DNA from: Nocardioides halotolerans DSM 19273
GTDB taxonomy: Bacteria > Actinomycetota > Actinomycetes > Propionibacteriales > Nocardioidaceae
Direction: 5' to 3'
Assembly (NCBI RefSeq): GCF_000422805.1
Contig: NZ_KE383926.1
Coordinates: 137,399-201,398 of the forward strand
Length of the DNA stretch: 64,000 nt
Under the pieces are notes generated by a model. The model was not told the origin of the DNA. It made no database searches and saw only the letters and a list, made by a program, of their open reading frames with translations. The translations under genes were made by a program, and so were the position numbers. Position 1 is the stretch's first letter. The number at the start of each line of letters is the position of its first letter. Below are positions 27,827 through 28,375 of the stretch, piece after piece.

Positions 27827-28340
27827 GCCGGCGGCGCTGGAGATCGTCCGGGTCGGCTACGGGCACCCCGACGCGATGCGCCTGATCGAGGAGGTGCAGG
27901 CGGAGTACGTCGCCCGCTACGGCGGCCCCGACGTCACCCCGCTCGACCCGCTGATGTTCGAGCCGCCGTCCGGCAGCTTCTTCGTCGGCTACCTCGACTT
28001 CGGGCGAGAGCGGCGACCGGTGGCGTCGGGCGCCTGGCGGGCGCACGACGACGTCGAGACGTTCGGCACCCGGCGTACCGCCGAGATCAAGCGGATGTAC
28101 GTCGCCACCGAGGCCCGCGGCCGCGGGCTCGCACGGACGATGCTCGCGCACCTCGAGCGGAGCGCGGCGGCGTCGGGTGCCGAGGCGATGATCCTGGAGA
28201 CCGGCACCGCGCAGCCGGAGGCGATGGCTCTCTACGAGTCGTCGGGCTACACCCGCATCCCGTCGTTCGGCTACTACAAGGACGAGCCGCTGAACCGCTG
28301 CTACGCGAAGCCGCTTGAGACCACTAGCGTGTCGCCGTGA
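27819..28340 (+). CDS. GNAT-family N-acetyltransferase
   Basis: 173 aa. The acetyl-CoA loop is [18 protein letters not shown] near residue 103, followed by [20 protein letters not shown] and a C-terminal [14 protein letters not shown]. The TTG at 27819 lies within the end of the previous gene; no later start keeps the N-terminal strand. Acetyl acceptor unknown. Its stop overlaps the mini-ORF at 28337. Confidence 0.85.
28325..28330 (+). promoter_or_regulatory. -10 box for leader mini-ORF and L7/L12-like gene
   Basis: TAGCGT inside the end of the GNAT gene, ending 6 nt before GTG at 28337. Confidence 0.55.
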
Positions 28341-28375
28341 GCGAGAACGTGACGGGCAACGTGGAGGGACTCTGA
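28337..28375 (+). CDS. 12-aa leader peptide ORF
   Basis: It reads [12 protein letters not shown] then stop. The GTG overlaps the GNAT stop (GTGA), and its TGA overlaps the ATG of the L7/L12-like gene (TGATG). A -10 box at leaderless spacing precedes it. The exact double overlap suggests a real leader ORF coupling translation; there is no direct proof of expression. Confidence 0.5.

Follow-up and report, generated by a model that had tools for sequence, protein, structure and literature searches.

We have analyzed a 64,000-nucleotide stretch of DNA (hereafter the window) from Nocardioides halotolerans DSM 19273, an actinobacterium with a genome of 4.86 Mb. In this window, a mini-ORF of 12 codons lies between a GNAT acetyltransferase gene and a gene for a small protein that resembles ribosomal L7/L12 (Table 1). 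The first-pass annotation had described this frame as nested exactly between its two neighbors, and the sequence agrees: it opens with GTG (28337-28339) and closes with TGA (28373-28375). The GTG overlaps the TGA stop codon of the GNAT gene (28338-28340) in a GTGA arrangement, and the last nucleotide of the mini-ORF is also the first of the downstream ATG (28375-28377), which is read in another frame, giving a TGATG junction. The hexamer TAGCGT was likewise found ahead of the GTG as described, with six nucleotides separating the two. Two further in-frame GTG codons, at 28349 and 28361, produce nested 8- and 4-codon versions of the mini-ORF because the spacer holds a repeat with a period of 12.

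Table 1. Features of the mini-ORF locus, in window positions.
Feature	Position	Strand	Remarks
GNAT acetyltransferase gene	27819..28340	+	PF00583, 53.3 bits; TTG start putative, as given by the ORF list
TAGCGT, leaderless-type -10 element (TANNNT), within the GNAT 3' end	28325..28330	+	Motif found at gap 6-7 in relatives
Three degenerate 12-bp units, most of the spacer	28335..28370	+	Lag-12 identity 0.62
Mini-ORF, 12 codons	28337..28375	+	GTG at the predicted transcription start; stop overlaps the next ATG
GGAGGG, Shine-Dalgarno-like site within the mini-ORF	28363..28368	+	Ends 6 nt before ATG 28375 (from the sequence)
Small protein of 109 aa with conserved MG.F start, linker and partial L7/L12 C-terminal domain	28375..28704	+	PF00542, partial; alignments A1 and A2
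Gene of 192 aa, family without assignment	28718..29296	+	13 nt past the stop of the 109-aa gene

The downstream product had been called L7/L12-like, which stands for part of the C-terminal domain and not for the rest. At E 0.001, Pfam gives a single match, PF00542, which passes its cut-off of 25.9 with 28.8 bits and is confined to profile positions 11-36 of 67. The L7/L12 equivalog TIGR00855 scores 26.4 bits, below its cut-off of 84.4. Thus, the gene does not encode a second L7/L12 but a small protein that carries a portion of the domain; a separate, ordinary L7/L12 of 132 aa is present in the same genome. Eight columns that the small protein shares with this L7/L12 (I84, I87, K88, R91, L98, A101, K102 and V105) are invariant in an alignment with ten other rows, the host's own L7/L12 among them, and M1, G2 and F4 are invariant across 12 aligned members of the L7/L12-like family. 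The gene is distributed patchily, with a match at E 1e-6 or better in at least 21 of 215 genomes of the genus, its own included; this is a lower bound because weaker members exist (loci L114 and L182). No publication on the gene was found among the titles listed in a literature search. Neither Pfam nor NCBIfam gives a match at E 0.001 for the 192-aa protein encoded next, whose gene possibly shares a transcript with the L7/L12-like gene. The two adjoin each other in loci L003, L004 and L114, and in several genomes without an L7/L12-like gene at this place the 192-aa gene directly follows GNAT, in some cases touching or overlapping it. Across the genus, the 192-aa gene is repeatedly found near this GNAT, and in some genomes the L7/L12-like gene lies between them.

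The first-pass annotation had termed the mini-ORF leaderless, and a leaderless-type promoter of the L7/L12-like gene is in fact conserved at this place. Among 22 de-duplicated relatives of the gene, 19 carry a TANNNT hexamer 6-7 nt before the start codon (gap 6 in eight loci, gap 7 in 11), and a scan of gaps 0-53 in all 22 found a single further TANNNT outside gap 6-7, at gap 33. The window and its sister locus L003, as the case in question, were left out of the 22, as were the duplicates L001/L112, L032 (with the same upstream and protein stretch as L004) and L143, and eight distant loci whose start could not be fixed (L040, L052, L055, L072, L073, L079, L091 and L108). None of those eight has the hexamer at gap 6-7 of the assumed start, so that the count becomes 19 of 30 if they are taken as misses. 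Three pairs within the 22 have near-identical upstream DNA (L007/L009, L010/L011 and L144/L145; 0.90-0.97), and with one locus kept per pair the count is 16 of 19. Locus L097, from Nocardioides speluncae, was retained despite an early stop in its reading frame; at ~2900-3084, an in-frame stop interrupts the linker of its L7/L12-like frame, with TANNNT at gap 7 and a recognizable C-terminal half both kept. The hexamer is missing from three relatives, L033 (which has TAAGGG at gap 6), L146 and L147, and these count against the explanation that we prefer below. In L146 and L147, the start codon lies 7 and 4 nt, respectively, past a TGA resembling the stop codon of the upstream gene, and these two genes may therefore rely on coupling to it.

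Since TAGCGT doubles as GNAT coding sequence (codons T-S-V), it could be that and nothing else, with an operon promoter further upstream driving transcription of the L7/L12-like gene and the gene's Shine-Dalgarno (SD) site starting its translation. The two genes lie 34 nt apart on the same strand, and a promoter scan of 27400-29400 found no sigma-70-type hexamer pair, both of which would suit such an operon. We nevertheless regard this as unlikely, given that the hexamer precedes the start codon in the 19 relatives under differing upstream contexts and given its behavior at GNAT ends. The stretch from -36 to +48 of the GNAT stop was compared with identical ends (L032 and L112) dropped: TANNNT is present in 6 of 6 distinct ends that have the L7/L12-like gene next (window and L003 included), against 1 of 27 (L150) that do not. 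The TAG of the hexamer is provided in L004, L013 and L034 by GNAT's own TAG stop codon. The signal is also visible genome-wide. In 354 gene-like ORFs from 461 kb of the host genome, selected on length and on GC by codon position, not taken from an annotation, and each with several candidate starts, TANNNT occurs at gap 6 in 35 and at gap 7 in 12, compared to 0-6 of the 354 at each remaining gap from 0 to 30. Four of the 35 gap-6 hexamers are TAGCGT, which is among the commoner ones. We conclude that the region of TAGCGT is very probably a real promoter, and the conserved hexamer at gap 6 makes 28337 the likely, predicted start of transcription.

Searches with alignment A2 were extended to the family and the phylum, where matches were mostly ordinary ribosomal L7/L12. 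Of 58 loci given or reused, L182-L228 were examined, and eight are non-ribosomal by sequence (L182-L187, L189 and L200); L227 was missed by the text pattern and judged ribosomal by eye. Seven of the eight, L200 being the exception, have TANNNT at gap 6-7 of one candidate start, a generous count since several of these distant loci offer many candidate starts. The proteins of L186, L187 and L189 each contain two copies of the L7/L12-like helical half-domain, and each of these loci has the hexamer at gap 6-7 of a candidate start.

The window departs from its relatives in the distance between this promoter and the gene. Relative to the GNAT stop, TANNNT sits at -13 in both the window and L003, and the gap to the start codon of the L7/L12-like gene is 44 nt in the window and 20 in L003. 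The gene in the window thus does not have the hexamer 6-7 nt before its own start, the mark by which leaderless genes are recognized. An alternative is a one-base sequencing or assembly error, or a fresh frameshift, in which case GTG 28337 would be in frame and the gene leaderless with ~13 extra N-terminal residues. GTG 28337 and ATG 28375 lie 38 nt apart, a single nucleotide less than 39, and the relatives do carry the element right before their own start codon. Both the error and the frameshift are nonetheless very improbable, because the 12 aligned members all have M1, G2 and F4, an N-terminal extension is needed by no other member examined, and an SD-like site precedes the homologous ATG in L003 as well.

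The first-pass annotation had proposed that the mini-ORF be judged by the conservation of its length and overlaps, and had named a frame without conservation as what would speak against it. The frame is not conserved: none of the five distinct syntenic relatives (0/5) holds the mini-ORF. The spacer between GNAT and the ATG is 34 nt in the window, against 10 in L003, 9 in L004, 9 in L013, 10 in L034 and 23 in L114. In L003, the closest relative (70% protein identity over 96 columns), the GNAT stop is directly followed by GGAGG and then ATG; compared with it, the spacer of the window has 24 additional nt. In a 23-protein tree, the window pairs with L003 at 88/93, which is below the star mark of the tool, and 12 of 20 inner branches are left open. 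The mini-ORF appears to be lineage-specific, as it was found in the window alone among the genomes searched.

The composition of the spacer bears on how much the open frame can mean. The lag-12 identity over 28335-28370, a stretch selected after being seen, is reached in 0.1% of 5,000 shuffles, or in 0.8% when the best of lags 4-18 is taken. With this repeat, GTG recurs at 12-nt intervals in a single frame, and that frame is more easily kept open, so that an open frame here is less surprising than it looks. Dinucleotide shuffling of 28331-28374 (20,000 shuffles) produced an RTG at gap 6 or 7 in 11.5%. In 0.86%, the stop of that frame overlaps the ATG as well, by 1 or 4 nt. Once GTG is fixed at +1, the stop falls on the ATG in 16%. 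At these rates, the geometry is unusual and not beyond chance for a reader picking among many sites. No clear enrichment of coupled leaderless mini-ORFs was found in the 461 kb, where there are two at gap 6, none at gap 7 and 0-3 at each other gap from 0 to 30.

An SD-like site before the homologous ATG is shared with L003 (GGAGG); none of the 22 other relatives has one within 18 nt upstream of its start. The start codon was therefore probably shifted downstream in the branch of the window and L003. This site also underlies the main rival to the reading that we prefer, namely an ordinary leadered gene in which the conserved promoter fires, the SD site does all the work of starting translation, and the mini-ORF is incidental, a chance product of the spacer repeat and of the ancestral start codon at +1 that leaves the gene unaffected. 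In its favor are GGAGGG itself, 6 nt before the ATG, the sister locus with both TANNNT and an SD site and no mini-ORF, the lack of conservation of the frame, the 12-bp periodicity that helps it stay open, and a leader fold that is not unusual. The folding energy of the leader has a z of +1.35 and is equaled or bettered by 185 of 200 shuffles, so that there is no case for a selected structure. Two points stand against it. The predicted fold of a transcript starting at +1 pairs the SD site (unpaired probability 0.00-0.01 at 28364-28367), and a ribosome within the mini-ORF would open this pairing. Moreover, an RTG at the 5' end of a transcript starts translation by itself in mycobacteria (PMC4633059), from which translation of the 12 codons would follow if 28337 is indeed +1. 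We consider an incidental mini-ORF a serious possibility and on balance improbable.

A second coupled mini-ORF at gap 6 from the same 461-kb scan provides a contrast within the window. At 22056-22153 on the + strand, a hydrophobic peptide of 27 codons, VNPRHRRLVIPVALVALLLIVLVAAVV, begins with GTG 22068, with TAGACT at gap 6. Its TGA stop (22149-22151) overlaps ATG 22151 of a methyltransferase gene (PF13679), again as TGATG. The peptide has no Pfam match at E 0.01, and a match to it at E 0.001 is found in 74 of 78 genomes of the genus, its own included. Loci of 20 of the 74 matching genomes were examined. The text pattern matched 15 of them, and TANNNT lies at gap 6 or 7 in every one; the other five were unmatched by the pattern and were not counted. 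It is probably a conserved, leaderless small membrane protein. This is the look of a selected leaderless small ORF in this genome, and the 12-codon ORF is unlike it.

Among known systems, the closest are the leaderless small ORFs of mycobacteria described by Shell et al. (2015, PMC4633059). That study reports that an RTG at the 5' end of the transcript is necessary and sufficient for leaderless initiation, and that coupling to the following gene is over-represented among leaderless small ORFs (23/220, versus 32/1000 random ORFs). The window resembles these cases in having an RTG at the expected 5' end, a length of 12 codons within their range of 5-50, a stop that overlaps the next start and an SD-like site embedded in the small ORF. 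It differs from the coupled class as defined there by an RTGA tetramer, since its junction is UGAUG with a 1-nt overlap, and it therefore fits at most the wider class of leaderless upstream small ORFs. It differs also in that coupling is not conserved in the window's relatives and that start and translation are here predicted from sequence. By this analogy, the mini-ORF would work at most like the known mycobacterial leaderless upstream ORFs. The bacterial leaderless genes described in PMC3160421 have TANNNT ~12 bp before the start codon and are reported there to be common in Actinobacteria. The hexamer, its spacing and the high-GC host are the same in our case, and the L7/L12-like gene's relatives match this description; in the window, by contrast, the first codon past the signal opens the mini-ORF and not the gene itself.

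Amino-acid attenuators also have a leader peptide, encoded by a short ORF before the gene. The window shares that short ORF, but the mini-ORF has no run of one codon, is not at a recognized biosynthetic operon, and has no terminator-like site around it (0 in 27400-29400). The missing terminator-like site and single-codon run speak against reading it as an attenuator leader peptide. Rfam at gathering thresholds gave two matches in the window, neither close to the mini-ORF; one is the Actinobacteria sRNA Ms_IGR-5 (RF02471; 39860-40076, + strand; 119.2 bits against a gathering score of 45).

Our preferred explanation, held with barely more confidence than doubt, is that the leaderless promoter was kept, the start moved, the 12-codon ORF is translated, and ribosomes pass from it to the gene. 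The stretch 28325-28339 would represent the leaderless-type promoter and first codon of the L7/L12-like gene, and not of GNAT. In most of the relatives examined, the transcript from this promoter is predicted to begin directly with the start codon of the gene itself. The common ancestor of the window and L003 (genome G047) would have left leaderless initiation by using a start codon further downstream, behind a newly gained SD site. The lineage of the window would afterwards have gained ~24 nt of spacer with the period-12 repeat, starting with GTG. An mRNA beginning at 28337 would then open with GUG and be translated immediately as the 12-codon ORF, and a ribosome terminating at UGAUG could restart on the L7/L12-like gene, aided by the SD site inside the mini-ORF. 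The peptide itself is probably without function.

This explanation has in its favor the conservation of TANNNT, the corresponding signal in the host genome, the pairing of the window with L003 and the SD site in both, together with the mycobacterial initiation at a 5' RTG and coupled small ORFs (PMC4633059) and the conserved 27-codon ORF of the same geometry at 22068. Against it count the frame without conservation, the ordinary fold, the absence of clear enrichment in the genome, the 16% shuffle rate and the fact that the SD site alone could start the L7/L12-like gene. Its parts differ in strength. Translation of the mini-ORF is somewhat probable, and coupling may be important for the L7/L12-like gene, a point on which we lean toward doubt. 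It was suggested from the outset that a leader reporting on translation would make regulatory sense next to a stalk-like protein. Nothing found supports a regulatory role of the mini-ORF, and regulation of the gene by the state of translation is speculative and very improbable. We also think it distinctly unlikely that the 12-codon ORF took over the ancestral leaderless start such that leaderless initiation, passed on through UGAUG, sets the level of the half-domain protein; if true, this would tie a stalk-like protein to the mode of initiation in a self-sensing link.

We take the mini-ORF for a probable by-product, or else for a plain site of ribosome loading, and not for a proven switch. It provides no evidence of a new regulatory system, and leaderless coupled small ORFs are already known from mycobacteria (PMC4633059). 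The L7/L12-like genes emerge as a patchy family of small L7/L12-half-domain proteins, mostly with a leaderless signal (in 19 of the 22 examined). The locus offers a traceable example of a possible path away from leaderless initiation, in which the gene would have kept its promoter, its start would have moved behind an SD site, and the position of the old first codon would have turned into a leaderless mini-ORF.
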